From Siphonodentalium dalli (Eukaryota; Mollusca; Scaphopoda; Gadilida; Siphonodentaliidae), in the NCBI GenBank assembly GCA_032622095.1, contig CP136069.1, forward strand, positions 15,298,450 to 15,362,449: 64,000 bases of DNA, given 5' to 3'. A program made the position numbers and the translations under genes. Under the pieces are notes generated by a model that ran no database searches, was not told where the DNA came from, and saw only the letters and a program-made list of their open reading frames with translations. Of this stretch, positions 8,400 to 56,900 are shown piece after piece; position 1 is the stretch's first letter, and each line of letters begins with the position of its first letter.

Positions 8400-11300
8400 G
8401 TTTGAAACCAGTTCAATTACCAATTTTCGCGCTTGAAGAATAATGGTCACTAAATCCGGGACACACTAAAAGTTGTAGTCCGAGTTGGGGAAAACTTGTT
8501 GTTGGGGCTTTTCAATTTCCTTTATTGTTGTTAATATACACTAAAAAAAATTAGATTTTTGGTTTGTGATAACATACTAACTGTATGCCAATTATTATGG
8601 GAAGCCAAATACCGCTATTCTCAAAGTAATTGACCAGAAAAACGGGGTGATACCCCGGTCATGACCGCGGTGATACCGGTAATAAACGGTAGCGGTATCG
8701 AGACGGTCATGGCGTGGAGTTACGGTATTGGGCGATAATGATTGAATACCGCGGTGATTTTCATGGAACTCTTTTAGGGGAGGTATTTACTCACACATAC
8801 TTGTTCGCGTTAACAAGCGGTATCAGTACCGCGGTATTGGAGGATACCGCGGTATAGTACCGCCATATTAACGGGGTGACACCACGTTATTGGTGGTCAA
8901 TTACTTTAAGTATAACGGTAGACATTTAATAAATAATTGAGCATTGAATAAGGATTCTCTTTATAATAATATAAGGAATATTCTTATTGCACTTAAACGC
9001 AATTAGCTCTTATTGCGCTTAAGCGCAATAAAATATTCCTTAATATTGCGCTTAAACGCAATAAGCCAAATTACATAAACTCCCTGTTATTCATATAATG
9101 TCCATAGTGCGATGGATGGAGTTTTTTGGTGAGGTGATTGTCCACATGTAGCCTAATTCGGATTCTACAATTTGCAGAGGGGTGATCTCATGAGGGAGAT
9201 ATTAATTACACTTAAGCGCAATAAGGATGTAATTGTGCTTAAGTGCAATAAGGGATATCTGATTGTGCTTAAGCGCAATAAGAGAAGATCGCATTGCGCT
9301 TACTAGTAAGCACAATAAGGAATATCTAGTAGCGGTTAAGCGCAATAGGGAATATATTATTGCGCTTAAGTGCAATAAGGAGTCTCTAATTGCAATTAAG
9401 CGCAATAAGAAATATTCTTATTGCGCTTAAGCGCAATTAGAGATTCCTTATTGCGCTTAAGCTCAATTATTTATTAAATGTCAATTTGGCTTATCATAAA
9501 TTACAAATAAAATCAATTAAAATGATACTTTGATAGTTTATAAGTATTATATTTCAACTTTTATCTTCATTTTTCATTCCGAAATCCACGTTATGAACCG
9601 GGGGCCGACTCGGCTTGATCGGACTACAACTTGTTGTTGGATTCATAATGAAAAATGTCTAGACTACATGTACCGGGTATAAACCTCATAGTCATATAGT
9701 GTATAATTTATGCGCCGGAGCCTTTCAATTGTGTTTGAGGACTACATGTACATGTACCGCTATTCTCAAAGTAATTGACCAGAAAAACAGGGTGATACCC
9801 CGGTCATGACCGCGGTGATACCGGTAATAAACGGTAGCGGTATCGAGATGGTCATGGTGGTGGAGTTACGGTATTGGGCGATAATGATACCGCAGTCTTT
9901 TAGCGGGCACCGCATTAATTTTGTTGAATACCACGGTGATTTTCATGGAACTCTTTGAGGGGAGGTATTTACTCACACATACTTGTTCGCGTTAACAAGC
10001 GGTATCAGTACCGCGGTATTGGAGGATACCGCGGTACCGGTATAGTACCGCCATATTAACGGGGGTGACACCACGTTATTGGTGGTCAATTACTTTAAGT
10101 ATAGCGGTATGTTGTAATATTAGAGCATACATTATTTTCTAGGCTGTTCCATTCCTCAATGGTTCGAACATAAAGCAGTGTGACGATTTGCAGTAGGTTG
10201 ATCCCAGTTTGCAGACCTCAACTTGCATGCATAATTCGTGGGGGGGGGGGGTCACTCTAAATTGGCAAAACAACACCATCAAAGAAATGGTGTATATTGG
10301 CTAGTTGATACATGTACATATTTTGGATTGTCTTTGTACATGTATACATGTACCGGTATGTATAAATTCATGTTATATTCTGTTACAATACAATATACAT
10401 GTACATGCATTACAGTGATTACACCCAATTGTTGTTGGTGTTACTAATAGTTTAATTGTTGAAATATAAATACATTGTACATTAGCCCAAGGAATTTTCA
10501 AATTGCCCAAAAAATATTGAAAATGGCCCAAGTGTTGACCCATAACAGGGAAATTTCCAGGGCTGTTTTGATACCTGTTACAGGTATGGGTGCCCAAATT
10601 CCTAGTGGACAGTATTGAGTCAACCTGAATTTTCCAAGGTAACTCAACAATATGATACAGTAAAAAATCTGCAGTTGCAATATAGAGCCTTTATTTGCAT
10701 GTTTAATTTTGAAATCAGAAATATTATTTCATATTTTTAATACATGTATACATGTACATGTATGTGCATGTATTTGTGTTGGTTTGACGCAGAAGCCTTA
10801 TTAAGTTACAGGTATATGGGATTATACATGTACTAGTATGTATCCTCTGCTGGAAACAGGTGTCCCCAAATTATCTCTGGATTCTTCCCTGCATAAATTG
10901 TTAGCGCGAATACTGACCCTATTGGATTAAATTGGACATTGATGGTTCTCTCAAATTATAATTTCTTTCCATAGGCTACCAAAGATTTGGTGCTGAGTCA
11001 TGGTTTTTTCTTTGTGAAGCATAAACAAATGAGACTTACCACAGACGAAGCTATGCAGTTCTACAAAGAGCACACAGGTTTGTAGCCAAGAATGATTACT
11101 CCCTGGGTTTAACCCTTTCAGTGCCAGGTCTGATTTTTGTATCAACCCATATACATGTACCCTGTGCCAATGCATTCTCTTATATATGCGAGTCGACCAT
11201 AGGTCGCCTCGCATATATAAGAGAATGCATTGGCCTAACAATTTTTCATCATTTGTTATTATTTTTTACAATTTTAATAATTTTTTCTTATATTCTTTAA

Positions 11301-14300
11301 CAGACTTATTTTGTAGGTTTAGTGCCAGGGAATATTACGTTTTTCATGGGCATCAAAATTATTACTATGAATACTTGGTGATAGTTTTGAGTTATAACAT
11401 GCCCCTAAGGTTTTATCCAGTTTGTTTTTAAATTCGCTATAGCATGCTTAAGCATACCCAAAACAAATTCAACCCAAAAAAATCTATAAAAAAAAAAATA
11501 TTTAGGGCCGATTTTACAGACCGTAAATTAGGGCCGATGAGATCGGCCCCTGGCACTGAAGTGGTTAAATAACCATAATTGTGGAATAAGAGTACATGTA
11601 CATGGTGGGAAATTGTGTCAAACAAAATAAGGATTGCAATAAAAATTTGTGACTAGGCCTCAAAATATGGTAGGAGACATTCGCATAATGAGGTCTCCAG
11701 CAGGCGAATTTGGTGATGCTACTCCAGTGGAAAGTATCTTTATTATCAAGTTAAGAAGTTTTTTAGATTCTTTAGAAAGATTCTTTTTCTTTTTTAGTTT
11801 AGTTTCTCTATATCCCCAAACTGGAAGATGACACAATGCATAATCGAGGTGCCCAATGGGTACACATCACCATCTTCACCATCTGAGAACTTAAATCTGT
11901 GTCTTGGACTCCCATAGCAGATAAGGCCATGCAGAATGAGGTCCCCAGATGTTTGACAATGCTATTCTGCTGTGTGGGATAACATTAATAAATTGGGGAT
12001 CTCATTCTGCAAATGTCCAGCCTCATATTTTGAGGTCTGTTTGTGATGTTGCTCCAATCCTGTGTCCACGGTAAAGGTGATGTGTGTCCACGGTAAAGGT
12101 GATGTGTGTCCATGGTAAAGGTGATGTGTGTCCACGGTGAAGGTGATGTGTGTCCACGGTAAAGGTGATGTGTGTCCACGGTGAAGGTGATGTGTGTCCA
12201 CGGTGAAGATGATGTGTGTCCACGGTAAAGGTGATGTGTGTCCACGGTGAAGGTGATGTGTGTCCACGGTGAAGGTGATGTGTGTCCACGGTGAAGGTGA
12301 TGTGTGTCCACGGTGAAGATGTGTGTCCACGGTAAAGGTGATGTGTGTCCACGGTGAAGGTGATGTGTGTCCACGGTGAAGGTGATGTGTGTCCACAGTA
12401 AAGGTGATGTGTGTCCACGGTGAAGGTGATGTGTGTCCACGGTGAAGATGATGTGTGTCCACGGTGAAGATGATGTGTGTCCACGGTGAAGGTGATGTGT
12501 GTCCATGGTGAAGGTGATGTGTGTCCACGGTGAAGATGATGTGTGTCCACGGTAAAGGTGATGTGTGTCCACGGTGAAGGTGATGTGTGTCCACGGTGAA
12601 GGTGATGTGTGTCCACAGTAAAGGTGATGTGTGTCCACGGTGAAGGTGATGTGTGTCCACGGTGAAGATGATGTGTGTCCACGGTGAAGATGATGTGTGT
12701 CCACGGTGAAGATGATGTGTGTCCACGGTGAAGGTGATGTGTGTCCACGGTGAAGGTGATGTGTCCACAGTGAAGGTGATGTGTGTCCACGGTGAAGGTG
12801 ATGTCTGGGGGCCATTGAAAATAGCTACAGAATGCCCATAAATAAACAAAAACAAAAAAACAATCCTGTGTCCACGGTGAAGGTGATGTCTGTCCACGGT
12901 GAAGGTGATGACTGTCCACGGTGAAGGTGATGTCTGTCCACGGTGAAGGTGATGACTGTCCACGGTAAAGGTGATGTGTGTCCACGGTGAAGGTGATGTG
13001 TGTCCACGGTAAAGGTGATGTGTGTCCACGGTGAAGATGATGTGCGTCCACGGTGAAGATGATGTGTGTCCACGGTGAAGATGATGTGTGTCCACTGTGA
13101 AGGTGATGTCTGGGGGCCATTGAAAATAGCTACAGAATGCCCATAAATAATCGACTCCTTAACCACAGCAGAATTATGGGTAACTTTTCAGGATTTAGTC
13201 GGAAAAATTCTGCTGTGGTTAAGGAGTTGGTTATTTAGGGCATTTCAGTAGCTAAGGCATTTTATTTTGTATTAGTTGGTTCTTTTTCATCTACCGGTAT
13301 CATTATTTATCTTCCAAATACAAAAAATATATTGTCTGTGCAAGTGGGCATTGGAAAGGCATAACCATAGATGATACAATGGTTTGGTTTAGACAATGAG
13401 ATTATACTATACAGCAAATATTTTATTTCCCCCAAACATTTTTATATATAAAAAAAAATTATAGCTGCTTTATTTTTATTATTTTTTCCTCCCACCTCCC
13501 CTACCTTTGAGCCAAAATAATCCGTAAACCAAGTAATATAAAATAAAATCGTGAACAAGGAATTTTTTGCGACATCAAAAACTAGATACATGTACAGTAT
13601 GTGAGCACTATATCAAACCATGTTTCTTAATCAGATTCATTATTCTCCTATCGTATCATTCTAGAAATCTGAATATGTTTCTAAAAAGCCAGGGGTTTGC
13701 CCCGGTACAGGGGCGCCCGAAGAGGGGGGGGCAGAGGGGGCAGCTGACCCCCTGCCCTTGACCAAGGGGGGCGAGCGGGGGCAGGACTTGCCCTTTTTCT
13801 GGAGACAGAAAATGCTTTTTGTGTGTTTATCTCGTGTTTTTATAGCAAAATGTGACTTTTTTGGTCCAAATACCACCAATTTCACAAGGAATATTAATTT
13901 TTTGTCAATTTTGCCACAATGAATTTGTGGTTATTTTCCCGAGTTTGCGGAGAAAATGCCCTTTTTGCGGAAAGTGCCTTTTTTGTAGGCTCTGCCCTTA
14001 TATGCTTCCGGCGCCCCTGCCCCGGTAGATAACACAATGAATCCAAACCATGGCATGAACCTTTCTTACATGTACATGTAGCTACTAAATGTTGATCTAA
14101 GCGCACAAAGTGAATAGAATGCGTGAACATGGTCCGGTGGTCACACAAACCATCCTATCTGGCTATTGATTCTCACATAAATGCACCTTGTCATGTAGCA
14201 TATTATGCACTGAACTGTTGTTTGGAAACAATTTTGTGTGATTGACTGAAAATGTTAATTGCGATTGCTTATTGAAGGTTACAATTCAACCCCAGTAACA

Positions 14301-17300
14301 TAATTACCATTGGGTTTGTTATTTAAGTCGATTAATATAGGTGGCAAGTCCAATATAAAAAAGTCATTATTGTATTGCATTTATTGATTTGGTTTTGATT
14401 ATTTTTTGTCTGTCATTATTTCGGCCGCTGAGGCATAACACGATGTTCCGAGTTTTCTATATCGTAGGAAAGAGTTAATTTTACTGGGAAATCCCTCCTT
14501 TGTAGAAAACATTGACCTTCACGATGCGATGTGAATCGCGATTTTGCTATCACGATACGATACGCATCAAGATGCAATTTTTTGGCAACTGACTGCTGTG
14601 AAAACTAGATGAACCACTTAATCATTTTTAGTATGTATATTCTCATCAGTGTTCACCTCAGCATATTCATTGAAGTAAACTTATTTACAAGACCTACATG
14701 TAACTAAAATGACCAAAATACATGGCCAGGTATTACAAGTAGACTATAATAACTAATACAGTCCCCAGATCTGCCCAGATGGGAAGTTTTTAGTAGAAAA
14801 GTTTAGATCTCTGACTATTGATAACTCTGCAGACATGTACATGTACATGACTTTTTTTTGCATCCCAATATGATGAATTGCATCGTGAACTTTAAATCGG
14901 AATCGCAATGAATCATTATGGCCCTGATAAACAACTAACAAACTTGGCCAGATACATAAATCAGGTTATACTGACTATCACCTTACTGACTGAGCCACCA
15001 GGGATCCAATCATGTTCTCTGCATTATCAGATCTACTCTGCTAATATTAACCCTTTTTATTCTAAATGGATTCTCCCATTTAGTTATAAAGGTATACATT
15101 GGAATGGTCTATTATTCCATTGGAGGGGTGTTCATAATAAATTAGCAGATGACAGTAAGATGAAAATATAAAGCAAGTGTTGAAGGATAATTCAAGGATT
15201 CATGTTTATTGGAGGGAATTGTTCAGATAATAAGTTCAACAAAGTTGAACTTATTATCTGAACATTTCCTATGGGAACTACTCGTCAATGAATATTTAGT
15301 ATAGAAAGGGTTAAACCTGCACTAGACGGTGTGTCTCTTGTTCCCTGTACCAGTGCATTCTCTTTTTATGCTAGTCTCCCATAGGTAGGGAGCCTCACAT
15401 ATATAAGAGAATACATTGGCCTAACATTATTTACATTGACCCCCTTGTACATGTAAGCCAGTGCATTCTCTCATATGCAAGGCTACCTATGGGAGACTCG
15501 CATATATAAGAGAATGCACTGGCACAGGATCTTTAATGCTGCACTAGCTTGGCTCCCATCATGAAAGAGTTAACTGAAGCTTGTTGGAATGCCAATAATG
15601 ATAATTCAGTAATGCCCAAAGTAATCGACTCCTTAACCACACCAGAATTATGGGTAACTTTTCAGGATTTAGTTGGAAATATGGCTTGTTGCCATTCATC
15701 GGAAAGCTCTCGGGGTTTTCCAACTAAATCCTGAAAAGTTACCCATAATTATGTTGTGGTTATGGAGTCGATTATTTAGGACATTACTGTAGCTCCTTTG
15801 CATTCAATGAGAGTCTAGATATTGAAGTTGTACTGTGACTAAAATTTCTAATCATTTGTTTGTTTTTCTCAACAGGGAAGTTCTTCTTCACCAGGCTTGT
15901 GAGCTACATGACGAGGTACCGTATGATTAACTGTCTGAAAATTCAAAGATACTTAATCCTTTCATAGCAGGAGCTTCCTGAATTTTTGCGAAATCCTGTG
16001 CCGATCAATTTTCTTACCATAGGTCGCCTCGCATATATAAGAGAATGCATTGGCCTAACAAATTTTATATTGTTAAAGAATTAAAGAACAATTGAGAAAA
16101 TCTATTTTTAATTGTTGAAAAATGTAAGAAATAATGACTAAAAATGATAACAATTGTTAAAGAATGTAAGAAAAAATGATAAAAATTGATAAAGAAAAAA
16201 ATATTAAAATTTATCAAAAGTTGTTAAAGAATCAGAAAGAATGTAAGAAAAATGATAAAAATTGTTAAAGATCGTAAGAAAAATTGTTAAAAAAATGATA
16301 AAAAATTGTTAGGCCAATGCATTAACTTATATATGCGAGGCGACCTATGGTGAAACTCGCATAAATAAGAGAATGCATTGGCACAGGGTCTTTAATGTTA
16401 TGCCAGCACAGCTCCTCTCAAGAAAGGGTTAATGTTTCTAGTGGGTAAAAATTAAATATAATAATGCCCTAATTAATCGACTCCATAACCACAGTAGAAT
16501 TATGGGTAATTTAGCAGGATTTAGTCGGAAATATGGCTTGTTGCTCGTAATCTGATTTTGGCTCGTAATCTGATTTTGGCAACAATCCATATTTCCGACT
16601 AAATCCTGAAAAATTACCCATAATTATGCTGTGGTTATGGAGTCGATTAATTAGGGCATTACTGTATAGTCGACATTAGAATCATGGGACCAAGTTTTTT
16701 TCAACTCATCCAGGCAGTGACCTCTCTTCATTTTATACTCCAACCTATAGGCTAGACAAAATTCCCTTCATCCAGTCCAGCTTGATACTGTACATGTATA
16801 TGACTGCATATAGTCATATTGTTTGTGTCATATATTCTGTGCTTAATTTTCCACAGGAATATCAGAAACGACTCGCATAAAGATTCATGTGACAAACACT
16901 GGCGAGAATCAAAATTGATTCACACAATTGGCAGCATCTGATTGGTGTAAAAAAAAACTATTTATCGTGGAAAAATATAGCAGCAATTCAGCTGAAACAG
17001 TGATAGATGTACATTTAGGTTGAAGGAAGTCGTGTTAATTGCAAAAAAAAAGTGCAGTATGGGAATCCATGCATTACCAGCTTCTGTACCCACACTCGCT
17101 CGGGGCTGTGGCTCTCGTAATCTGATTTTGTCACATCATGCTGATAATTTAATTAATAACTACCGAAATGATTTTGATTCTCCTCACTTCCAACAGATTT
17201 TAAGCCCTGATATTAACAGCTTACATATATTAATTTAACAATGTTAGTACATGTATTGCAATTAACCCTTTACCCAACAGAAGGGCCCTGTGCCAATGCA

Positions 17301-20300
17301 TTCTCTTATATATGCGAGTCGACCATAGGTCGCCTCGCATATATAAGAGAATGCATTGGCTTAACACATTAAAAATTATAAAATTGTTAAAGAATATAAG
17401 AAAAAATGGTAAAAAGTGTTAAAAAAAGTTTTTTTTTAGGCCAATGCATTCTCTTATATATGCGAGGCGACCTATGGTCGACTCGCATATATAAGAGAAT
17501 GCATTGGCACAGGGCATAACTGTAACTATCACAATGTGGTCAAGGAGCCGGTTCCAATGATATCCATATTTGTATGGTTCTATTGAGACAGACCGAAGAT
17601 ATTTTAGGCTGTTGAAGCTTTATTTGGCCGGTTTTGGCCGGTTTGTTGGGTAAAGGGTTAAGGTCTTTTTAAGATGGTGTGCAAAGTGAGCGAATTGTGT
17701 GATTCCTGTGGAAGGGATTTCAAGTTTCTGTGTTTTGTATCTAGAGTTTCCAATCCAGCTGTCTGTGAAATTAAGTTGTTATTCATTCACCAGATGAAAT
17801 AATTGTTCTCCATGGTAGGATCTTTAATGTGCGCACATTGTTGCAAACAGGACAGCCATTTAGCATTGGCTCCCGATCCGACAGTATTCCCAATCTAATG
17901 TAATCCCTGGTCATGTCGTTACGAGAGGAGCGGATGTACGAAATTCACACAGTACGTGTTTTTCAAATTTTGTCTGACATTCTTTTGCTTCCGGAATCGT
18001 TCTCAGAGCACTTGTTGTAGCATGGATTGTTGATTTGTGATGCCCATTGTAGTGGGAATGCAGATGGCAACATAAAGTACGACCGACAATCGGATTTTGA
18101 AACTTCAACTGGTGTCGAAGGTGTAGCTCAGTCAGCCCACAAACCAACTGAGCTATCTGCTCCTCCTAATTGTTATGCCATATCTTTGATTGTTTAGTTG
18201 AAAGATATTTCTTGGTTACTCTTTGTTTTTCCCTCACTCTGAGTCACTCAGTCATAAGAATCATGCAAATCACACAGAAAAATTACAAGCTAAGTCTGTG
18301 TCTCATAGTTACCAAATTAATTGATTTAACCCTTTACCCAACAAAATGGCCAAAAACGCCCAAATAAAGCTTCAACAGCCTAAAATAACTTCGGTCTGTC
18401 TCAATAACACCATACAAATATGGATATCATTGGAACCGGTTCATTGACCACATTGTGATGGTTACAGTTATGCCCTGTGTCAATGCATTCTCTTATATAT
18501 GCGAGTCGACCATAGGTCGCCTCGCATATATAAGAGAATGCATTGGCCTAAAAAAATTCTTTTTTAACACTTTTTACATTTTTCTTACTTTCTTTAACAA
18601 TTTTATAATTTTTTCTTACATTTCTTACATGTTAAGCCAATGCATTCTCTTATATATGCGAGGCGACCTATGGTCGACTCGCATATATAAGAGAATGCAT
18701 TGGCACAGGGTTGTTCTGTTGGGTAAAGGGTTAACATAGAGCACGACATATTAAGTGTTTATTGTCACATTTAAGATCTTTTTCAATATTTATTTGCAGT
18801 GGGTATGTGATTGTCAAGATTCTAGCTAAAGAGAATGCCATTCAAGATTGGAGGAAACTAATGGGACCAACCAAGGTTTTAAGGTAGATACTACAGTAAT
18901 ACCCTAAATAATCGACTCCTTAACCACAGCAGAATTATGGGTAACTTTTCAGGATTTTTAGTCGGAAATATGGCTTGTTGCCTTTCATCGGAAAGGTCTC
19001 ACTGGGAATGAGGTACCCAGATGGTGAATTTAGTGACGCTAAATCACATAGCAGGCTAGCATCACTAAATTCACCCTCTTGGGACCTCATTCTGCATGTC
19101 CTTATCTGCTATGAGAGACATAGACTCCGATTGAGGTTCCCAAATGGTGAATATTGTGATGTACACCCATTAGGAACCTTGATTATGCAATGTGTCGTCT
19201 GCCAATTTGGGGATATAGAGAAACTAAACTAAAAAGAAATAGAATCTATGTGAAGAAGGTTCTATAGAAACTTTCCTGAGAAGATGAGGCCTAAGCAGAA
19301 TGAGGTCCCCAGAGTGTGAATTTAGTGAATCTATCCACCTACATGTCGCTAAATTCACCCTCTGGGGACCTCATTCTGCAAATGACAGGCACACTAAACT
19401 CAGACTTGAATGACCATGCCATTCAGTAATATTAAGATTGCCCTTGAAAATGTTCTCATGTGGCATGTCTTATTTGTTTTCTGCAGTCTCGTTATTTTAC
19501 TTTATAGGACAGTGTTTGAAGAACCTGACAGTATAAGAGGGAGATATGGGCTTACAGACACCCGGAACTGCACCCATGGATCAGGTAGCTACAGTAATGC
19601 CCTAAATAATCGACTCCTTAACCACATCAGAATTATTGGTAATTTTGCAGGATTTAGTCGGAATTATGGCTTGTTGCCATTCTTCGGAAAGCTCTCAGTG
19701 AGAGCTTTCTGATTAATTGCAACAAGCCATATTTCTGACTAAATCTTGAAAAATAACCTATAATTCTGCTGTTTATTTCTTGATTTTGTTATTCGACTCG
19801 GCCACAAAATCAACAACCCACCACTCTACATTCAAGCATGGTTATATATAGTGTGTCTGACAGTTGCAGAATGGGGTCCCCAGAGGGTGAATTTAGTGAT
19901 ACCATGCTGCACAGCAGGCTAGCATCACCAAATTCACCATCTGGGACCTCATTCTGCTTAGGCATCATCTTCTGGGAAATATATATATATATAGTCTCAA
20001 ATTAACATTGTTTTTAGTTACTTTTTCACACTGAGAATGGGAAGCAGATTGAGACATTATATTTCCGAATGCACTTTATAAGCATACATGTACATATCTA
20101 ATTAGATTTACATGGCATTGATATAGTTATTAATATATGATAATGTTGAGTACATGGATCTGGTATATGAAATATGTTAATGATGAATTAATACATGTGT
20201 TAGGAGCATTTGGCTGCACAGACCAGTTTATATTCATCAGGAAGGCTTGAATGTACAGTAATTCCTGAAGTGTATGACCCTTTAACCACAGTAGAATTAT

Positions 20301-23300
20301 GGGAAATTATTCAGTATTTAGTCGAAAATATGGCTTGTTGTCATTCATCGGAAAGCTCACACCGAGCTCTCGATGAGAGCTTTCCGATGAATGTCAACAA
20401 GCTTAGCCATATTTCCAACTAAATCCTGAAACATTTCCCATAATTCTGCTGTGGTTAAAGGGTTTAGGGGTCGATTATTTAGGACATTACACTATGCACA
20501 GTTAACTCTTGAATAATTGGAATGAAGTAGTGTGAAGAATTTATAACGAACCAAAGCCAGACGCTTTGGGTCGTATATAGACTATATCTGATTTTATGAC
20601 GTCACCAATTATTATTTAATACGACACTCATGTTTTGAATTTTTGCGAGCACTTTTGTCGCACAGTAGATTGGTGGGCTTAAAGCATTAATGTCGTAATC
20701 TGAAATAAACGTCTGCGTCTTTCAATGGCTGCCATTCCAAAATGAGAGGAGTTACTATCGGAATTATGCACTGTGAAGTTCATTCGTAGCCGCGGTTTAC
20801 ATTTTATTGAGACCATAATTATTATACAGTTATCGCCCATGATTGAGTGAGACACAGGGATTTGTCGCCTGCTCGAGACCTGGAATGTCACCCGAGGGCC
20901 GCTAGGCCCGAGGGTAACATTCCAGGTCGAGAGCGGCGACAAATCCCCGTGTCTCACGAAAACAAGGGTGATAACTGTTTTGTTATCTGACAAAGGAGTA
21001 CGCACGAACCTCCTTAATAGCAGGCTTAAGTGCGTGCGTATATTCTTTAATCCAGTTCGAAGAGTTAATTTTATGTTGGAATCCTCGCATTTCAGAAAAT
21101 AAAACATTCACATTCTGGATCAATTAACACACCCATCATTTGCGCAGCTATTCTCCGGTCAGATTGCTGGTCGCATGGTGGGGATCGGTTCACGGAAAGA
21201 GGAGTAAAGCAATTTTGAAGTTGAGTAGCCATGCAGCGAAATGTTCGGTTTCATTCAAATGAGCGTAAAGACGCAGGCACACGTGTTAATTTCCAGAACG
21301 CTAAAATGTGAAACTAACACGTCGTAGTTGTGCAAAACGAAATTGACATATGTTACAGATTGTTACGCAACATAAGTGTATTCTTAAGTCTGAGGAATGT
21401 ATTGCCGAAAAGAAATAGTCAATTGATAAACAGTAAAGAGTGGCTATTTGATCTTTAGAGCTTATACATAAACGTATTTGTAATGTATGCACATCGTATG
21501 TGCAATTGTCTGCAGCACATACCAACTGCCTAATAAGGTTTATCTATTTGTCCCACGGTATTTATTATTGATACAAAAAGGTCCAATAGGAACATTACAC
21601 CTTATAACAGATTTGTGTCCGTGATAACACCATTTATTCTTAGCGTGCTTTAATTGCAAATTAAAAACACACAATTATGCAATTAACAAACACCACAGTT
21701 TGCGGTTGTTATGAAACAGTGGGGTTTATAAAAACAGTGTTTTCGGAAAGTATCAGAGAGCTGTGAGAGAATCTCTGCGCGTTGAGTTCTTAGTAGTTCT
21801 ATGTTTACTGGTAACAGCTGAGTGGTCAATAACTGAGAAAATGTTACCCTCGAGGGTAATAAGTGATTTACGGCCTGCCATGTGACGCACTCTCAGCCAA
21901 TCAGAAGAGAGGAAAATGGGATGAAGGATAACAAAACATATTATGGACTGTCAAATATTTGCATTGGAGTGGCCTAAAATATAAATGTTGCAATGGGAAA
22001 ATCTCAATCACTCTGGCTGGGCTGGAGACAATACTGGAATTGAAATCGAAATTCGTGATGCAAGTAAACATTATTATATCGCGTTTAAATTATCCTAATA
22101 TTACATAGTACATACGTGAATATGATAATCCTCAGATATCCTTCTATTTTCACGAATGAACAAACAGAAGATACATTCAGGTTATAAAAAATTTGGTCGA
22201 TGGTGAAAGCTATATGATGACGTTGTTCATCGAGTTTTGTTGAAATCGACATGATGACATTTTATGAATGATGAAATCGACAAGCTTCTTCGTGTAGTAC
22301 ACAGATCTCAATCGGATTGTGCACAAAGCGTCAATAATATAATGGTTAATTTCAGTAAAATACTCCCCTCTAGACAACAACCAACAGTCTTGACTTTTGA
22401 ATACTTTCAGTTTGATGTTGGTAATTTATATTCTATAATAATTTGTACAAAAGGAATGGCTTTTAAAGTTTTTTATTTAAGTTTTAAGTCCCGAGTCGGT
22501 GAGCTCGTAGTCTGTTTGCATTGTGAATCTCTGATTTCTCGCATGCCTTGATGATATGATTGACCTAATTTATACACAAAATTGCTATACGACCCACTCT
22601 GTCGATGAACCCTTGTGTATGTCTGGAGTGTAATATATCATAATCACACCACGATATAAGTCCTAAGTTAATCTTATTTGATTTGAATATGCTTCTATGA
22701 AGTTAATTTATAAGATTAACCCTTTACCCAACAGAACGGCCCTGTGCCAATGCATTCTCTTATATATGCGAGTCGACCATAGGTCGCCTCGCATATATAA
22801 GAGAATGCATTGGCTTAACACATATTAAAAATGATAAAATTGTCAAAGAATGTAGAAAAATATTATAAAAAATGTTAAAAAATGTAAGAAAAAATTATAA
22901 AATTGTTAAAGAATGTAAGAAAAAGTGTTAAAAAAGTTTTTTTTTAGGCCAATGCATTCTCTTATATATGCGAGGCGACCTATGGTCGACTCGCATATAT
23001 AAGAGAATGCATTGGCACAGGGCATAACAATAACCATCACAATGTGGTCAATGAACCGGTTCCAATGATATCCATATTTCTATGGTGTTATTGAGACAGA
23101 CCGAAGATATTTTAGGCTGTTGAAGCTTTATTTGGGCGTTTTTGGCCGGTTTGTTGGGTAAAGGGTTAAAAAAGACAGATATTCCTACTGAGCTTATGCA
23201 TGTGTTTTAGCTATGGTTCCTTAATTACGCTAGCGTATGGTCAACTTAGAATGCCTGTCCATTTTTTCCCTTCCAACAATATAAAAATTAGTTTCTTATC

Positions 23301-25556: not shown

Positions 25557-25700
25557 TTGGGTGGAGAATCACGTGATTTCGAGTTTGGTGAGTACCACGC
25601 ATTCAAAATGTGCAAACGCACAAGCACATACTAAATGAGGAACTGACACAAAACATAACATTTTGACTAACGATCATATCCTAATTTATTTTAAAAACAA

Positions 25701-26166: not shown

Positions 26167-26317
26167 AACCTTGAAATAGTGTGTCTGTCATTTGCAGAAT
26201 GAGGTTCCCAGAGGGTGAATTTAGTGATGCTACCCCACATAGTGGGCTAGCATCACCAAATTCACCCTCTGGGAACTTCATTCTGCAAATGACAGGCACA
26301 TTATTTCAAGGCTTGAT
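26167..26317. mobile_element. AATGAGGTC-family MITE, 8-bp target duplication
   Basis: A 151-bp hairpin flanked by GATACTCA at 26159-26166 and 26318-26326. The empty site is readable in the related host element at 39137-39634, where GATACTCATCAACTCG is continuous. This fixes the duplication and suggests a hAT-type mechanism. Confidence 0.85.
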
Positions 26318-26479: not shown

Positions 26480-26712
26480 CTTTAACCCATTCTTTACTAA
26501 ATAGTCATTGACGAGTAGTTACATTAGGAATGTTCAGATAATAAGTTAACCCTATCTCTACTAAATAGTCATTGACGAGTAGTTACATTAGGAATGTTCA
26601 GATAATAAGTTAACCCTATCTACTAAATTCTCATTGACGAGTAGTTACATTAGGAATGTTCAGATAATAAGTTAACCCTATCTCTACTAAATAGTCATTG
26701 ACGAGTAGTTAC
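26480..26712. repeat. about 64-bp tandem repeat, four units
   Basis: Units of CTACTAAATAGTCATTGACG, then AGTAGTTACATTAGG and TTCAGATAATAAGTTAACC. An inverted relative lies at 15228-15310 (TTCAGATAATAAGTTCAAC). Confidence 0.9.
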
Positions 26713-26985
26713 AATGTTCTCGAAAATGGTCCATACCCCATTTTCACCCCCTCGGGGTGGCACCCCCGGGGGTGATGGGTGGGGTCATGGTGTTTATAGG
26801 TGGTATTTGGGGCGGGCCACCCACCCATGCCGTCAAATCGGCCGAAATCCTTACCGTTCTCGAAATTTCTCCATACCCCATTTTCACCCCCGGGGGTGAT
26901 GGGTGGGGTCGGGGTGTTTCTAGGGGGTATTTGGGGCCGGCCACCCACCCATGCCGTCAAATCGTTCGAAAGCGACATTTTTGAA
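26713..26985. repeat. about 156-bp GC-rich tandem duplication
   Basis: Two units, each with CCATACCCCATTTTCACCC, a CCCGGGGG palindrome, GATGGGTGGGG and CACCCACCCATGCCGTCAAA. All frames are open on both strands, which yields five spurious ORFs. Confidence 0.85.
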
Positions 26986-37574: not shown

Positions 37575-37768
37575 TTAACCCTTTCAGTGCCAAGTCCGAT
37601 TTTTGTATCAACCCGTATTTCCTTGACCATTTTTCAAATGTATCGATTATAATAATGTAGCCCTAAGCTTTCCATCAATGTATCACATTATTATAATCAA
37701 TACATTTGAAAAATGATCAAGGAAATATGGGTCGATACAAAAATCGGACTTGGCACTGAAAGGGTTAA
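37575..37768. mobile_element. TTAACCCTTTCAGTGCC hairpin element, short form
   Basis: A 194-bp almost perfect palindrome from TTAACCCTTTCAGTGCCAAG to its reverse complement, without the hairpin cassette. It shows the ends can exist alone. Confidence 0.85.
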
Positions 37769-37959: not shown

Positions 37960-37969
37960 AGTCTCACGG

Positions 37970-39134: not shown

Positions 39135-39136
39135 AG

Positions 39137-39634: not shown

Positions 39635-39656
39635 GTCTGAATCGGTGGACACTTAC

Positions 39657-39826
39657 CGGCTTCAAAGAATGCTGCAGTTTTCATTTTTGAGTAAGCGAAC
39701 TGTGGTGTGGTCAAGTTTTTCGACCAATCGCAATTGTGGAAACGATCCAATGAGCAAATCCAGTGCTGTCTATTATCGCAATCGGCGTTACCAGCTTTTC
39801 TCATCTCGAATCTCCTCTCACTTGAT
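39657..39826 (-). CDS. PAN-protein exon 4
   Basis: Acceptor CCCTTTTCAG|ATCAAG. Its first base completes GCA (Ala) after exon 3. It encodes SSERRFEMRKAG, then HNCDWSKNLTTPQFAYSK. Donor GAAGCCG|GTAAGT, leaving phase 1. A terminal-inverted-repeat element ends about 20 bp below the donor. Confidence 0.8.
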
Positions 39827-42800: not shown

Positions 42801-44645
42801 GTTAAGCAAGTTAACTTCTAAAATTTCGTCAAAATGTCTGCTAAAGACGTATTTATAGAAATAAATGCATGAATGACGAAGAGATGATGTTAGATGTAAC
42901 TAATAACATAATTATGCTCCCCTGCTATCGTCAAAAGACTGCCGTAAAATGTAAAATCTGAGACTGATTTCCAATATTCATGGTAAATAAAATTGTGACA
43001 AATCAGACAGAAATTGTGTGAGAATTAGCACCAATGTTCGATATAATAAATAATGAATGTCTTGTCGTTGACTATGACAAAATAGTGGTACTCGAGGAGG
43101 AATAGTCCTCTCGCCTGCGGCTCGTGGACTATTCCTACTCTCGGACCACTATTTTGGCATAGTCAACTCCAAGCCATTCATTATCTACGTATATAGTATT
43201 TCCTGTATGAATATGCCACCAACAGGGATGGGTCCATTTCTTACAATTACTTAAAAAACTCTCAGATGCAGTTACAATTACTTTCAAATAGTAAAGTAAT
43301 TAATGAAAATGACTTAGAGAAAGTAATTAATAACTTTTCAATTACTTTAATGGAACTTTCAATGTTGTTTCATGTGTCAATGTGAACAGTTTTGTGAACC
43401 AAATTTCGACACACTACATACCAGAACTTTGGGGTTCACCAAAAACAAAATTAAAGAACATAATTCTGTTGAATTAGCTTTGCGGTTCTGTGTATTTGCG
43501 CATTCAAAATAAATAACTTCCACATTGGGAGGCACAAGACAAAAAAATGCCCAAATTTATTTCGATTTTAAGTCATCTTGACAAAGTAAAGTTTGAGCTA
43601 TTACCATGGGTTGTCGCCCGTGTGTGCGTCAGTGCGTCTGTGCTTGTATTCGTGTGTGAGTCCGTCAACAATTTCCGTTAGTACACCCTACATATCACAT
43701 CATTCATCCGCTCGTCACCAAACGTCCTACAGATCTTCGGGTGCCCTCTAACTGCGGGCCATCAACTTTTTCCGAACTTCGTTAAAACTTGGTCATGCAC
43801 TAGCAGCCATATTGGATTTCATATTTGAATCCATCGACACACCATGCAGCCCCAATTTATTGGATAATTATTTTTTGAAATATAGTAGGCATCTGTAGAA
43901 TCACATATAGATGGAAGCTTTCAAATTTGAACGATTTTCGGTGAAAAACCAATTTATGATTTTACTCTTTGCATCACTAAATCAGTTGACCGGTAGAGTA
44001 GTGTATAAATCAGTTGACCGGTCCAGTAGTGTATCTTTGCAGATGATATACCACAAACGGTCAGACCGATTGGTAAAATAAATAATGAGATAAAACGTGT
44101 TTCACAAATTGTGTACACGTGTTTTCCGTTACCACCCCAATCGCGGACGCATCTGAGAGCAAAACAGAAGCAAGAGACACATTCGGCCGAGGAGTTCCGC
44201 CGGCTTTTGGCTGGTGTCAGAGGAATACAGTTACATCTCTATTGACGCTACCATTAGAAGCATTGTAAATATGTGGGATATAATAAATCCCCAACCCTTT
44301 TATCACTGTATGAGGCTTTCTGAAATTTGCGAAAACACACACACACACACACACACCCTTGTTTGTATTACATACGTTGTGGGGACATTTCTTTAGAAAT
44401 TCAAACAATACCGTAGTTGTGAGGACCTCGTTATTTCGTAAATATTACAAACTCGGAGGGTACCTTTAACGAAATAACGGCAATCTTTGTAACGCATGCG
44501 TAGTATCATTTCCGCCTAGTGCGGACGAAAAAATATCAAAAATTTCTAAAAATACAAATTTCCGTCGCCTTAAGGGAAAAAACTGTTAACATTGTGAGGA
44601 CATTGTTTTACTATATGAATGTCCTCACAGAGATGGGTTAACACA

Positions 44646-44722
<77 letters not shown>

Positions 44723-44826
44723 AGCGTAGTTCAGACGATGTTTTCTATGGAGTGGTACAGTCGATTTGCTTCATATTTTGGGCGATGTTAGTAGAATCCT
44801 ACATCCCTCCAGTTGGCATAGCACTT

Positions 44827-44896
<70 letters not shown>

Positions 44897-47706
44897 AAAG
44901 TGTGGAGAGCGCGGGCACAGGTCGGAATCCGATTTCTTATGTAATTATTTCTATGGAACTAGCTAAATTTTGTTAGGTTGTGTCGGAAATTGACATAAAT
45001 TTTGTTAGGTTGTGTCAGAAATTGACATAAATTTTGTTAGGTTGTGTCGGAAATTGACATTGAATAATTTGTTGAGCATTGTTGCCATTCAAAGATAGAA
45101 CTAGCTAAATTTGTTTGGGTTGTGTCGGAAATTGACATAAAATATTGTGTTGAGCACAAACTAAGGATAATGGTGTTGACATAAGCTAAAAGCTAATTGA
45201 ACTGCGTGTTAATCAAGGTCTGAGTCTAGATCGAACGAGCATATCTCTCAAACTGGGATTTTTCTTGTAGGCAATAATAACCCGTTTGTCGAGAGGCTCG
45301 GTCAATTTAGTGTTTAATAATGCAAAGTTTTTTCTGAAAATGTTTGCGATTTCAACATTTCTACGATTGTAGATCAGAGGAAAGCACAAGAAATTTCGAG
45401 AAACACCTTTGTAGTCAATGTTAAGTCCGAACGGAAGATATGTTTTAAGTACGCCCATCCAATGATTTTCGCGTTCTAGGCGTATTGAATCGGTTTGGTC
45501 TTCGTCGGCTAGAATTGGTGTCTGTTCTATTGGCTGAAAGCTGAAATGGGATTTAATGTCATGATTAGATGAGTTGAAATGATCGGAAATTTGCATGTCG
45601 AGTTTTTTTGCGATGAGCCAATTTGGAAATCCAATGTTTTAAAATTCAATCTCATTCTCAAAAGCTTGCTGGACCAGGACGTTTTAAAGAAAAAACATGT
45701 TCAGTATCTAATTGCAAAACCTGAATCCAATAATAGGACATTTTATTTGCTACCTAAAATACACAAACCTTTGAGCTGTTGGACTAATCCATACACACCA
45801 CCCGGTCGCCCCATCATCAGCGACGTGGCTTCGGAGTCGTACCACATTTCGGAGTTTATTGATTTCTATTTGAAACCAATTGCTACCCGCCATCCGAGCT
45901 ATCTAAAAGACACGGAGGACTTCCTCATTAAATTGTCGAAAATTGAAGTTCCATCTTCTGCTTACCTAATTAGTCTCGACGTGGAATCTATGTATACAAA
46001 TATTGGAATCGATGCCGGATTAAAGTCAATTAAGAATGCATTTGATTTCCACCATGATCCTCATAGACCTGGAGATGAACTACTTCAATTATTAGAACTT
46101 TCTCTTAAAGGGAATGACTTTGAATTTAATGGACGATATTATTTACAGGTCTCCGGCTGCAGTATGGGCAAGAAGTTTAGTCCTAATTTTGCCTCAATTT
46201 TTGTTGCAGAGTGGGAGAAAGGCGCCCTGGCCAAATCTGATAAACAACCATTAGCCTATTATAGATTCTTGGACGACATATTTATCATTTGGACTCATGG
46301 TCTGGATGAGTTTAGGGTGTTCTTGGACATCTTGAACAGTCATGACGAATCAATCAAACTCAAAGAATCAATATCGCAAACCAGCATTGATTTCCTTGAT
46401 TTAACAATATTTAAGGGCCCACAATTTACATCATGCAACATTTTAGATACAAAACTTTTTACGAAACCAACGGATTCTCACCAGCTACTTCATCGTAAAT
46501 CTTTCCATCCGCCAAAACTTTTCAATGGATTGATTAAATCTCAAATCATTCGATATCACCGGAACTGCACGAACAGAAGCGACCTAAATCAAGCTTGTTC
46601 AGTGCTTTTCCAGGCTTTACGACCGCGCGGCTACTCTAGTAGATTACTGCGCCAAGTAAAGTCCGAAACTCTCAGAGAATTGAACTCGTCACGCCATGAC
46701 CCAACATCGACTGAACCAACAAGGATACGGCACAACCGGCCGGTGTTGGGTAATGGTTCAGCCTCATTTTGTCACAAAAAACGATGTTACATCAATACAA
46801 TAGGATATATCAATACTAGTAACACTTTCACCAGCGAACAAACACGCATATCGTATCAAATGCATAGCGAACTTAATTGTGATTCTAAAAATGTAATTTA
46901 CTTAATCACATGCAAAAGATGCCGTATACAATATGTTGGACAAACAAAAACCTCTCTCAAAGTTAGAATGTCTAATCATCTTTCCAGTGTTCGCAAAAAA
47001 CTCGACATGCAAATTTCCGATCATTTCAACTCATCTAATCATGACATTAAATCCCATTTCAGCTTTCAGCCAATAGAACAGACACCAATTCTAGCCGACG
47101 AAGACCAAACCGATTCAATACGCCTAGAACGCGAAAATCATTGGATGGGCGTACTTAAAACATATCTTCCGTTCGGACTTAACATTGACTACAAAGGTGT
47201 TTCTCGAAATTTCTTGTGCTTTCCTCTGATCTACAATCGTAGAAATGTTGAAATCGCAAACATTTTCAGAAAAAACTTTGCATTATTAAACACTAAATTG
47301 ACCGAGCCTCTCGACAAACGGGTTATTATTGCCTACAAGAAAAATCCCAGTTTGAGAGATATGCTCGTTCGATCTAGACTCAGACCTTGATTAACACGCA
47401 GTTCAATTAGCTTTTAGCTTATGTCAACACCATTATCCTTAGTTTGTGCTCAACACAATATTTTATGTCAATTTCCGACACAACCCAAACAAATTTAGCT
47501 AGTTCTATCTTTGAATGGCAACAATGCTCAACAAATTATTCAATGTCAATTTCCGACACAACCTAACAAAATTTATGTCAATTTCTGACACAACCTAACA
47601 AAATTTATGTCAATTTCCGACACAACCTAACAAAATTTAGCTAGTTCCATAGAAATAATTACATAAGAAATCGGATTCCGACCTGTGCCCGCGCTCTCCA
47701 CACTTT

Positions 47707-47737
<31 letters not shown>

Positions 47738-47738
47738 G

Positions 47739-47821
<83 letters not shown>

Positions 47822-47871
47822 AATGTAAATATTGGCACAGGGTTTATATGCTAGGCTCTACATGGGAGACT

Positions 47872-47943
<72 letters not shown>

Positions 47944-50900
47944 AGTCTCCCATGTAGAGCCTAGCATATATAGAGAATACATTGTCCTAACAATACTTAC
48001 CTTGACAATGTAAGCCAGTACATTCTCTTATATATATACGCGAAGTTCCATATAGGAGACTCGCATATATAAGAGAATGCTCTGGCACATGATATTTAAC
48101 AACGCACCACCAGCCAAGCTCCCGTCATGAAAGGGTTACAAATTAATTTTAATATTGTTTTTCAATTGCGTCACAATCATTTTGGACGGATATTCCTCTA
48201 GTTATTAAACATCTTATTTACATAATATTCAAACAACTAGGTTGAGGCAATTTTTTTAGCAAACTATGAAGCCCTCTGCCGATATAATATGATATCACAC
48301 ATGTTATTAAAGGTACTTAATCCGAATTAGCGCTCGCAAATTACTATTTCCTTGGCTTCGGGGGGTAACAAATATTTGATTCGAGTCGAGTAACCCACCC
48401 ATCAAAGCTAGGAGTGATCAGATATCGATGTTTGAAATATATTTGTTTAATTGTAAATGGCCCAGTAAACTGTCGACGAGAAGAACTTATCTGACCAGAT
48501 AGCTGATGAAGATCGATAACTCTAAAATCCAGTGGCTATTTTGCGTCAGATATTTGACAACTGGCAAAATTTCTTTGAACAAAACGTTGATAAATAACAG
48601 ATTTTGGGCAACTTTATACTATATTTGACTGTGGTTAGCATTATTTTTGGGCAATTAATCGATTCTGATAACTGAAGCGTATTTTGAAGAAATGTTGTTG
48701 TTGTTGTATCTTGATGATATGGGAACCCTCTGATCGGATTGAGTACCTTTAATATGACGATATACACGTATTTACAGGATGATAAATTTTGAAATATAAA
48801 ATATGAATTTCCTTTCTTTTTCTTTCTTTAAAAAAAAAAAATTTAAATTCGAAATCTTAAAATTGTTCAAAAAAATAATTTAAAACAAAAATAATTTTTA
48901 AAAACTTTAAAGTTATGTTAAACACTCTGGTAGGGTGATCAAATAGAAATGGAGAATACCTTCAAAGTAGTTATTGTTAGACATGTTATCTCCAAATTGA
49001 CAACACACAATTTCATTAATATTTATCCAGTAAATCACAGTAATAGTGACTCTTGGTTGCGTCCCGAATCAAGAAATAAATATGTACAATTGAGTATAAG
49101 TTCGGACGATGTTTCTATAGAGTGGTACGGTTGATTTCTTGAGATTTTCGGCGATGTTAGTAGAATGCCACGATCATCCAGATGACACAGCTCATGAATA
49201 CTAACTTGTCAGTTTCACACAATCGAACAAGTCCATACTATGTCTTTAAAAACAACTTCCAATTTTAAAAATTCATTTTTTTAAATAAACTTAAAAAAAT
49301 GATTTATTATTTTGTTATTGTAAAATAGGCTTACGCGAGAAGATTGACTTGATAGATTGTTGGACCCGGTAGATCACTGTAGCTGCTTGCCAGTATTTTC
49401 GCTATTTTGAACCAACTCAGACGGTCCGTGCCTACTCCGTCAAATTCAATCCAAGCCACTGATTTCTCATTCACGTACATCTCAACCACGACCTGCAATT
49501 GAAGAAAATATGTGAAGTGGCACATAGCTTTGCAATTCAAACTACTGCATGTTAAGAGGGAGGTAAAGTGGCAACATTTGAATGGGGAATTCAGTGTTAA
49601 AGACATATTTATTATATATGGATTTGTTCGGGTGTGTGCCAATAACAAGTTAGTATTCATGTGCTGTGTCAACTGTAGGATCGTGGCATTCTACTAACAT
49701 CGCCGAAAATCTCAAGCAAATCGACCGTAACACTCCATAGAAAACATCGTCCGAACTATACTCAATTGTACTTATTTACTTCTTCGGGACGCAATTATTA
49801 GCGATAAACTAACGAAAATGATTTCGCCACCAAGAGTCACTGTATTACTGTCATTTACTGGATATATAAGAATGAAATTGTGTGTTGTCAACTTGGAGAT
49901 AACATGTCTAACAATAACTACTTTGAACAAGGTTATTCTCCATTTCTATTTGATCACCATACCAGAGTGTTTCACATCAATTTAATTTTTTAGAAAAGAT
50001 TGATCAAACCTTACAAAGCGCAGGTGACCATATCATACCTTTTTGGAAAGTTTGAAGACTTATGTAGTGACAACACGAAGCGGAATTATGATTTTCATCC
50101 CACGTTGGACATTATTTGACATTATTTCTCTTGTCTATTCAGCGAAATCTCAACATCTGCGGGTCAAATTTCACGTGCGACCGTGTCATTGATCTTGATC
50201 TTGACCTCGCTCATATACGCTCATATAAGCATGTTTCTGGACCGATCGAAAAATAGTTGGTCAAGACGGTGTATCTTCTACCCAGACGGAGGCGATCACA
50301 AAGAAACCCCTAAATATCGAGACGAAGTCGGGCACATCAGTCATATCAAATCTAGTCGTAAGTCGGGATTGTTTTTACCCTGTGCCAATGCATTCTCTTA
50401 TATATGCGAGTCGACCATAGGTCGCCTCGCATATATAAGAGAATGCATTGGCCTAACAATTTTTTACAATTTTAATAATTTTTTCTTGTAATCTTTAACA
50501 CTTTTATTATTTCACCCATACAGAGCCCCAGACAAACATGAGCAGACGACTCTCTTCTATATGCTTCTATATGTGTGTGGGGCTCCCTGCAGGGTAATGG
50601 ATGTTTTTTATTTTATGTCCTAAAAATTGTAAGAAACATTTATTTAAAAAAAATTGTTAGGCCAATGCATTCTCTTATATATGCGAGGCGACCTATGGTC
50701 GACTCGCATATATAAGAGAATGCATTGGCACAGGGTAAAAAAAATCCCGTCTTACGACTAGATTTGATATGGCTAGTAATTGGTTACTTTTATTATGTTT
50801 GTAAAACATATTAAAAGATTTAATTTTCTCGGAGTAACTATTAATCATTTCGGCCAATTTGGCCGGTTACTTCATGTGAGTTTTTCATCTGACGTGTGTG

Positions 50901-53900: not shown

Positions 53901-56900
53901 GTCAAGGTCCAGAAACATGCCTATGAGCGAGGTCAAGTTGACACGTTAAATACCAAATCCGAGTCGGATCAGTCGAGCAGTGTTAGAGTCTATAACACAT
54001 ACACACATGCATTCATGCATACACACATACATACAGACAGGTGTTCCAAAATGTATAATCGATAGCTACAACAATTCTATGGTAGATAGTTCACGGCCGA
54101 CCTGATGCATGCATCTTAGTTTTCTTGTCTGTATTGGCGTTCATTTGTCCTACAAATAAAGTAATTATGCTTGATTTTGGCAGTTTAACATGCCTTCGCC
54201 TATATGTCTTCGTATCCCAATAAATAATTCATATGGCCTAATTCATTCTTCGTTCATGCGCCACAATACGCATGCCGCACAATAGCCTGGCAATTAATAA
54301 CACGTAATGAGTTGTTCTCTTCTTACCATGGGTCGACATGCAGACGCGGTTATTTCATACTGAATTGACTTTTACTGACGACTGGTCGAACTATATGGAG
54401 TTCGACGTATCAATAACTTTATTTTTACCCGCCCACCCCATATCTCCCACATAATTTAGGATTTTATTCCAATTATTTGTCCTAATACATACTACAGGGG
54501 CCTGTTTAGCCAAAAATTCAATATAAATTGAACGGTATACATGTACATGTTATACTTTTCCAATTCTCTTCCATTATTGTATTCTCATACGTGGAAATCT
54601 TGATACTATTTACTGTAAACCAATTAACTGAAAATAATAGTACTTGGATTGAGATTTTGTAATAATTTATTATCATTAATATGTTATATAGACATGTGTA
54701 TATTGGGGAGCTAGTTATTACGCTCCCCAATATAATTTGGCAAATAAATATATATAAATCTATCACGTTGAAAGAGTTCTCCATTGGGAAAATTTATAAT
54801 TACACCAAACAAGAATCTCACACAATAACGTATTGTCTTCGCTTTGTGAATTGGAGCTTCATTTGTATATTGTTTAATTACACGATATTACATCACACAT
54901 CATATTTTACATTACAAGGAAGATTAAAGTGGCCACAAATATTTGAGACCAATGAACAGAAACTGTCATATGTTATCTGGACCACTTAAAGAGGGAGAAA
55001 TCAACTACAAATTGATCACAGTATTAGAGATATGGTGGTATGCTAGGATTTGGCAGTAGGCCTATGATCTAGAAATCATCTCAGCCTAAGATTTCATTGA
55101 TCAACAGGCACGACATAAAAAAATCGCAAATATGCCTTTATTAGTTGTATTTATAAGTAAAAATAATGATGAAATTTCTTGTATCAAGAAAAAATAAGTT
55201 CCCACGTGATCTTCAAATATTATATCATGGATATATAAACTGCTCGCACGAACAGTTCTTGGCACCTGAAAACCGGTATTGGATTTAAAATATAATTATA
55301 ATCATAAAATACTAGAATGCGAAATTTCCATTTCCAACTGATTGACCGTCCTTAGATTGTGGCCATATTGATCCAAAGAGAAATTCCAGACAGATTATGA
55401 GAACAGTAAGCTAGAAATAGCAAGAGTTGTAGGCAGGTTACCTATATATACATACCTTGTTTATGTTTGCTTCAGTCCAGTTTGTCAGAACTGAACTCCT
55501 GTACATGTCTCCACAGTCTGGGTTTCCCGGGCAAAGATATGTATCATCGGTCCACGTAGGGCCCATTTTCCTGCCCATCGCTTTCTTTGCAGAGAATATA
55601 CCGATCCAATATTCTGAAATAATAGCAATCATGGTCGATCTGAGATGCACTGTCAGATTTGGCAGTAGTACACATTATCCGAAGTTAATTTAGCAAAATG
55701 AAAATGAAAAATACTCACCATCGTCAGAATGGCAATAGCATCTACATGTAATCCGACAGCAGAAGGGGTGAACCCTGACATTTTGGTCGCAAAGATAATT
55801 ATTGTTGACTATCTGAAACATACTCGGGAGCCTTTGTTCATTGTCGGAGGGGGCCTGCCTCCAATTTGTTCGTTATGGTATACGGCACTAATTTTATTTT
55901 ATTTCTTACATAAACCTTTTTTTATTTTAGATTGAACGCCTTGCTCCATTTAACAAATAACTGTATTTTCAATTTGTTTAATTACATCAAAATTTTGAAA
56001 AAAAACTGACGCCGTTATAACATTCGCCATGGTACCTGAGTCAACACACCACATTTGGTTGAAATCGGTTCAGGAATCTTGGAGAAAAATCTCACTGTGA
56101 CAGTCATCTGCCAATGTATAAACGTAAATTCACGACCAGAGTGTACATGTACAGTACATTTCGTTTAACCCTTCCCCAACAGAACGGCCCTGTGCCAATG
56201 CATTCTCTTATATATGCGAGTCGACAATAGGTCGCCTCGCATATATAAGAGAATGCATTGGCTTAACACATTAAAAATTATAAAATTGTTAAAGAATGTA
56301 AGAAAAAATGGTAAAAAGTGTTAAAAAAAGGTTTTTTTTAGGCCAATGCATTCTCTTATATATGCGAGGCGACCTATGGTCGACTCGCATATATAAGAGA
56401 ATGCATTGGCACAGGGCATAACTGTAACTATCACAATGTGGTCAAGGAGCCGGTTCCAATGATATCCATATTTGTATGGTTCTATTGAGACAGACCGAAG
56501 ATAATTTAGGCTGTTGCAGCTTTATTTGGCCGTTTTTGACCGGTTTGTTGGGTAAAGGGTTAAACATTGTCGATTTATCCACCAAATATATAATTATGTT
56601 ACATACATAAGATAGATTGAAAATGGAAATACATAAAGAATTGTTATATGAGTTGTCTATCCATGTATCACCTATGTTTACGAGGGTCCCTTTGTTAGCA
56701 GAGAATATCACGCCCCAGTATTATGAAATTATAGAGAAAAAGTTCCCCGGTTCGTGTGAGAGGTTACTGCCTGTGGACTTTGCCGTGAACACAACACAAT
56801 ACCATACGGTAAAACTTTGTTTAAGAAATAAATACACTGCGCATCGGCATGTATATATTGTAGACTTTGACCACAAAGAAACTGATTGTAGGACGACGCG

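Follow-up and report, generated by a model that had tools for sequence, protein, structure and literature searches.

A hairpin cassette that recurs inside short elements with otherwise unrelated ends was analysed in 64,000 nucleotides of the scaphopod Siphonodentalium dalli (assembly GCA_032622095.1, contig CP136069.1, positions 15,298,450 to 15,362,449; hereafter the window). All counts below refer to this single 64-kb window. At roughly even odds (a probability of about 0.5), the cassette is an exchangeable internal core of short non-autonomous transposons, mostly miniature inverted-repeat transposable elements (MITEs) of piggyBac type flanked by TTAA. Evidence for this reading includes an abrupt boundary at which agreement between elements is lost, and the presence of identical stems in elements whose adjoining flanks are unrelated.

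Architecture of the cassette and its enclosing ends

The intact unit ran in the order CCCTGTG, a 69-bp hairpin stem, an AT-rich spacer, an inverted stem and CACAGGG. Each intact stem consisted of 33-base arms with one T/C mismatch and a loop of ATA. The stems of a mirror pair were inverted copies of each other, so that the whole unit at 17286-17514 could form a single giant hairpin (as DNA, -102 kcal/mol, compared with -20 for shuffles). A sequence-only reading of the window had listed the palindrome at 17 places; it was found at all of them, two being partial or rearranged (the 16.02-kb copy had lost most of its outer arm and the 47.9-kb copy was rearranged around an (AT)n run). A fuzzy scan of the window with the 27-base half-arm, allowing up to 8 mismatches, recovered 31 half-arms, including a decayed remnant at 5350-5376, an eighteenth place that the list had missed. 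The mirror pairs with AT-rich spacers described in that reading were likewise observed, eight in number, at 17.3, 18.5, 22.7, 50.4, 56.2, 15.35, 16.0 and 47.9/48.0 kb, with one damaged stem each at 16.0 and 47.9/48.0 kb; the 11.16-kb copy was a lone stem with half a spacer. With up to 3 mismatches, the end motif CCAATGCATTCTCTTATA occurred 32 times (0.12 expected from shuffles) and the core GTCGACCATAGGTCGCC 13 times (0.06 expected).

The enclosing elements had been credited with several unrelated types of end, and this was correct, except that there were four types rather than three. Type A ends (TTAACCCTTTACCCAACA) belonged to four copies, type B (TTAACCCTTTCAGTGCC) to one copy, in which one stem and half a spacer were present, and type C (ATATCAAATCTAGTCGTAAG) to one copy without TTAA. 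The additional type D (TTAACCCTTTC.TGA.(G)GGAGC) was represented by three copies, at 15.3, 16.0 and 48.1 kb (D15, D16 and D48), and by the remnant. Three of the four types (A, B and D) were TTAACCCTTT elements. TTAA was present at both ends of all four A copies, of B, of D15 and of D16, but not of C. Family A had a terminal inverted repeat of 14 bp beyond TTAA at each end, with a small change at one A56 end. The left end of B fitted a terminal inverted repeat starting CC[C/T]T, while its right end (TTAACCACTT) departed from it; element C carried no such repeat. One end of D16 read TTAACCC and the other TTAATCC, the left end of D15 (TTAAACC) matched neither the D15 right end nor the CC[C/T]T start, and D48 had a mutated right end (GGGTTAC) and a left end that was not traceable. 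All eight cassettes with both outer ends traceable (four A, B, C, D15 and D16) lay within a short element bounded by TTAA or inverted ends, and the half-arm scan found no free-standing cassette in the 64-kb window. The claim that TTAACCCTTTCAGTGCC ends also exist without the cassette was substantiated by a palindromic MITE (Table 1).

A sharp boundary between a shared core and unrelated flanks

Of 17 junctions printed in alignment on CCCTGTG, 8 representatives were compared in 28 pairs. The damaged left junction of D16 (16.0 kb), which keeps only CCTGTGCC, was scored one base out of register and agreed at 5-6 of 20 bases inside the cassette; setting aside its 7 pairs left seven junctions of six flank types, in 21 pairs. 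In every one of these, 18-20 of 20 bases agreed inside the cassette, while outside it 1-8 of 20 agreed in 20 of 21 pairs. The exception, D16R/D15R (14/20), concerned two type D right ends with a flank in common. Means over all 28 pairs were 78% inside and 26% outside; the high agreement inside is by construction, given the alignment on the cassette, and the result is the abrupt fall outside, scored without a shuffle control. TCCTGTG replaced CCCTGTG in D15R and the remnant, as did TCATGTG in D48R. Thus, the junction comparison bore out the proposal of a cassette with sharp ends common to elements of unrelated termini.

Stems were highly uniform among types A, B and C: 9 of 11 matched the reference at 69/69, one matched at 68/69 and one had a single change near its end. 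In the comparison of B with C, the stems were identical (69/69) and the spacers agreed at 38 of 40 positions in the best block (z = 8.6), while the adjoining 20-base flanks agreed at only 5/20. This rules out one uniformly decaying family. A single family whose ends had merely decayed was the outcome that the sequence-only reading had set against itself, and it is rejected for B versus C in the window; such a family would account for TTAACCCTTT being common to A, B and D, but it is now barely credible. Among 20 spacer comparisons, which were chosen by the authors, eleven produced z values from 2.6 to 8.6, including B-C50L (8.6), A22R-D16R (7.6), B-D16R (5.7), A22R-C50L (4.2) and A22R-B (3.8), although moderate values need care because the modern spacers are AT-rich repeats. 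Insertion into palindromes, which had been suggested as the cassette's habit, was not the rule. Only in element C was the cassette centred in the element's own inverted repeat; A and D were asymmetric about it, and B held half a cassette.

Two ages of stem could be distinguished. D15 and D48 carried an older stem (CCAG..., with GTCTCC... at its centre) and a short spacer; the stem in A, B and C was modern, and that of D16 was close to the modern type. Type D had the most variety, which makes it the likeliest source of the cassette.

The claim that stems are better conserved than spacers held in family A and is backed there only. In the alignment of its four copies, with ungapped variable sites counted, sites treated as independent and regions picked after the finding had been read, 2 of 150 sites varied in the stems plus CCCTGT, compared with 16 of 147 in the long flank (p = 4.6e-4) and 15 of 76 in the spacer (Fisher p = 2e-6; 67 gapped columns dropped). 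The short flank varied at 7 of 23 sites, a value raised by one copy aligned with an offset, and spacer and flank did not differ (p = 0.10). The contrast persisted for non-singleton variants (stems 0/150, long flank 6/147, p = 0.014). CpG occurred 4 times per 69 positions in stems and 4 times per 147 in the long flank, a density that would push the stems to faster, not slower, change if CpG sites are methylated here. The stems of family A seem, then, to have been kept for some reason.

Proposed origin of the cassette and rival explanations

In the preferred reading, the cassette would have originated in D-type elements, which hold both older and newer-like versions, and then have passed to A, B and C ends. 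Its passage may have gone through the giant hairpin, the base of which would break, or give rise to a template switch, in the course of repair; transfer at that point would place all junctions at the first base pair, without duplicating the target. Spread would be passive, with a piggyBac-family transposase acting in trans and moving the enclosing element through its TTAA ends. The stems may have been retained for a contribution to mobilisation in cis, for instance as a binding site or through cruciform extrusion. A transposase-binding role is thinkable, because the left-end palindrome of piggyBac is bound by the transposase dimer (PMC11707139).

Several observations weigh against this reading. 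The independent events are few, about 4-5, in one window, and element C, being without TTAA, stands outside a piggyBac-only group. The distance from element end to stem in family A is 30 bp on one side and 153 bp on the other, and so a positioned transposase site fits poorly. Nine of the 20 spacer comparisons had z < 2 (A22L-A22R, A22L-B, B-C50R, B-D16L, C50L-D16L, A22L-D16L, D15L-B, D48L-B and D15L-A22L); set beside the eleven higher values, they indicate that modern spacers are partly related and that the short, old-type spacers show no relation to them. Support for selection on stem pairing was weak. Covariation was assessed on 11 of 15 intact or nearly intact stems, representing 7 distinct stems (the four omitted were identical to included rows). 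Across the 7, 92.8% of cells were paired, compared with a shuffled mean of 90.9% (reached by 17 of 500 shuffles), and two-sided changes affected 3 pairs and 6 cells, counts reached by 249 and 18 of 500 shuffles respectively; this is suggestive at most. Finally, conversion rather than function could be the cause of stem sameness.

This last point leads to homogenisation, whether by hairpin-templated repair (quasipalindrome correction) or by conversion between copies, which is compatible with the other readings and which we regard as possible but doubtful. It would explain why singletons too were scarce in the stems (2/150, compared with 10/147 in the long flank, p = 0.019), and D16 looks intermediate, with a modern inner arm (GGTCGCC) and an outer arm (GTTTCACC) unmatched to it. 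However, the T/C mismatch between the arms was present in old and new stems alike (T28 and C42 were invariant in 11 of 11 aligned stems), where conversion within stems should erase it, and the old D copies had not acquired modern sequence. It is somewhat unlikely that the cassette is itself a transposon, with terminal repeats CCCTGTGCCAATGC..., that inserted into several MITEs and was amplified with them. The intact junctions of A, B and C, with their constant, inverted termini, would suit such an origin, as would TA on both sides of C and at the end of the left B junction. Yet no consistent target-site duplication was identified beside CCCTGTG...CACAGGG in the seven cassettes tested: there was none in the four A copies, which probably reflect one ancestral event, a match of one base only in D15 and D16, and TA in C, which is uninformative because it sits within a palindrome and is indistinguishable from symmetry. 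Nor was a solo copy found in the 64 kb.

We think it unlikely that the cassette is a parasite of MITEs, a DNA hairpin unit that would move in folded form, be cut and rejoined at the hairpin base with no duplication of the target, settle within other terminal-repeat elements and then depend for its spread on the transposases of these hosts, piggyBac-type or not. A function in RNA, by which read-through transcripts would fold into 33-bp hairpins and either yield small RNAs on processing or be shielded from decay, is more improbable again. The stem does fold near-perfectly as RNA (-54.3 kcal/mol, z = -14), but any DNA palindrome folds likewise, no Rfam family was found at gathering thresholds, and a selfish element would not benefit from a small RNA that targets the element itself.

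Enclosing elements and neighbouring repeats

The elements and their cassettes are listed in Table 1.

Table 1. Positions of cassette-bearing elements and their relatives in the window.
Feature	Position	Strand	Details
Family A element (TTAACCCTTTACCCAACA ends)	17262..17661	+	cassette 17286-17514; stems 17292-17360, 17440-17508
Family A element, reverse orientation	18326..18734	-	cassette 18473-18710; stems 18479-18547, 18636-18704
Family A element	22716..23169	+	cassette 22740-23022; stems 22746-22814, 22948-23016
Family A element	56165..56563	+	cassette 56188-56416; stems 56194-56262, 56342-56410
Family B element (left end TTAACCCTTTCAGTGCC, right end TTAACCACTTCAGTGCC)	11109..11568	+	half cassette from 11160; single stem 11166-11234
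Palindromic MITE related to family B, without cassette	37575..37768	.	41/44 end bases as in B left end
Family C element (ATATCAAATCTAGTCGTAAG inverted ends, no TTAA)	50343..50770	.	cassette 50378-50735; stems 50384-50452, 50661-50729
Family D element (D15), old-type cassette	15311..15573	.	cassette 15343-15529; stems 15349-15420, 15457-15523
Family D element (D16), modern-like cassette	15953..16432	.	partial left stem 16016-16054; right stem 16313-16382
Family D element (D48), old-type cassette	47825..48139	.	right stem 48014-48086
Decayed remnant, D-type half element (outer arm and right flank)	5350..5420	-	

Within the spacer of element C, the region at about 50513-50620 was unlike other spacers, held facing GAGCCCC/GGGGCTC motifs and has the look of a subsequent insertion. 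In D48, the left stem was rearranged into a loop-free palindrome of 130 bp centred on (AT)n (47843-47972, up to 2 mismatches), in which the old-type stem centre occurs twice, the two copies facing each other across the (AT)n run, as if by a template switch. Adjoining the D48 cassette was a Penelope-like element (44640-47820), both outer ends of which lay within (AC)n(AT)n runs. Its open reading frame (45573-47390) had relatives with reverse transcriptase and GIY-YIG domains: those listed carry RVT_1 (PF00078), and many also carry GIY-YIG (PF01541), the best two among those listed being 54-55% identical. Together with the many MITEs, this frame would tentatively point to an animal genome. The element contained a perfectly inverted partial copy of 780 bp (arms 44829-45608 and 46995-47774).

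Other repeats in the window included hairpin-like repeats with little or no loop (393-500, 15589-16682, 19590-19679, 20333-20402 and 26204-26276), some of which share arms of GGTAACTTTTCAGGATTTAGT type or GGCTTGTTG.CATTCATCGGAAAGC type, and large nested inverted repeats without the cassette (48961-49927 and 61929-63146). A 22-bp minisatellite (TGTGTCCACGGTGAAGGTGATG) was present in 48 copies at 12061-13109, with long open frames on the minus strand.

Comparison with known systems

Searches beyond the window, which took in no eukaryotic genome collection, were negative. IMG/VR contained no exact match for two cassette patterns. In prokaryote genomes, a 17-base pattern had 26 matches, compared with about 60 expected by our own arithmetic assuming equal base use; not being in excess, and with 4 of the 26 reaching 18 bases, these were attributed to chance. 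A protein search with the open reading frame crossing both stems, aimed at spurious frames in other genomes, gave no candidate. The open-licence PMC literature yielded no paper in which a 21-base stretch of the stem, or the end of family A, is printed, and among the papers listed by further searches none was recognised as reporting a nested-hairpin cassette. Helitrons were dropped as candidates on the grounds that the flanks are not constant A/T, and Spy elements on the grounds that they are not AAA/TTT. Foldback elements and other long-inverted-repeat MITEs have very long inverted repeats able to form cruciforms, as does the cassette; they differ in that each cassette arm is itself a hairpin, that the unit lies inside other elements and that it has no consistent target duplication.

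TTAA elements with palindromes near their ends are also known from piggyBac and piggyBat. Identical 19-bp palindromic sequences have been described in both piggyBac ends, and the palindrome at the left end binds both cysteine-rich domains of the dimer (PMC11707139). The cassette stem, by contrast, is 69 bp long and stands at distances from the end that vary; no transposase has been assigned to the elements, none having been sought. Elsewhere in the window, GGCCGAT..ATCGGCC-like palindromes occurred just inside TTAA, at 11531-11549 (the B right end) and at 5193-5209, and are reminiscent of piggyBac subterminal palindromes.

A close parallel is provided by the CMITEs of Acropora corals, described in the available portion of their report as TTAA-flanked MITE families starting with CCC, whose terminal repeats differ and whose shared internal region is more conserved than the ends; its origin was left unexplained and called a mystery by the authors, and CMITEs also form tandem arrays (PMC2872659). 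The cassette shares with them a conserved internal region across families with different ends, as the junction comparison demonstrated, and the start of CMITE family VI as given there (CCCTTTCACTGCCA) is one base from that of family B (CCCTTTCAGTGCCA). The CMITE core, however, is about 75 bp long and is not reported as a hairpin in that portion (PMC2872659), whereas the cassette core is a nested inverted repeat and also occurs with non-TTAA ends, in C. The 60-bp CMITE consensus, compared with the window at E values up to 5, had no match within any cassette, and its best matches were of 12 bp (E = 0.36) elsewhere. Separately, a 64-bp tandem array (26482-26713, unit TTAACCCTATCTCTACTAAATAGTCATTGACGAGTAG...) and its single relative at 15248-15314 both contain CATTGACGAGTA, 12 bases that also occur in the coral CMITE core and that in the single copy lie 24 bases in from TTAA; at E = 0.36 in the window this is a lead only. 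The cassette thus has a CMITE-like arrangement but a different core sequence, and has been filed apart.

It is an open question how MITE families come by new ends and why certain internal regions persist longer than the ends do. The cassette has a precisely placed boundary, stems of two distinguishable ages and several types of end, one of them lacking TTAA, and this makes the question testable in one genome: the cassette could reveal whether repair at hairpins exchanges cores, and whether mobilisation depends on the stem. Four features set it apart from the systems above: hairpins nested within the core, an abrupt boundary that coincides with the base of the giant hairpin, the absence of any consistent duplication of the target, and occurrence in an element that lacks TTAA.

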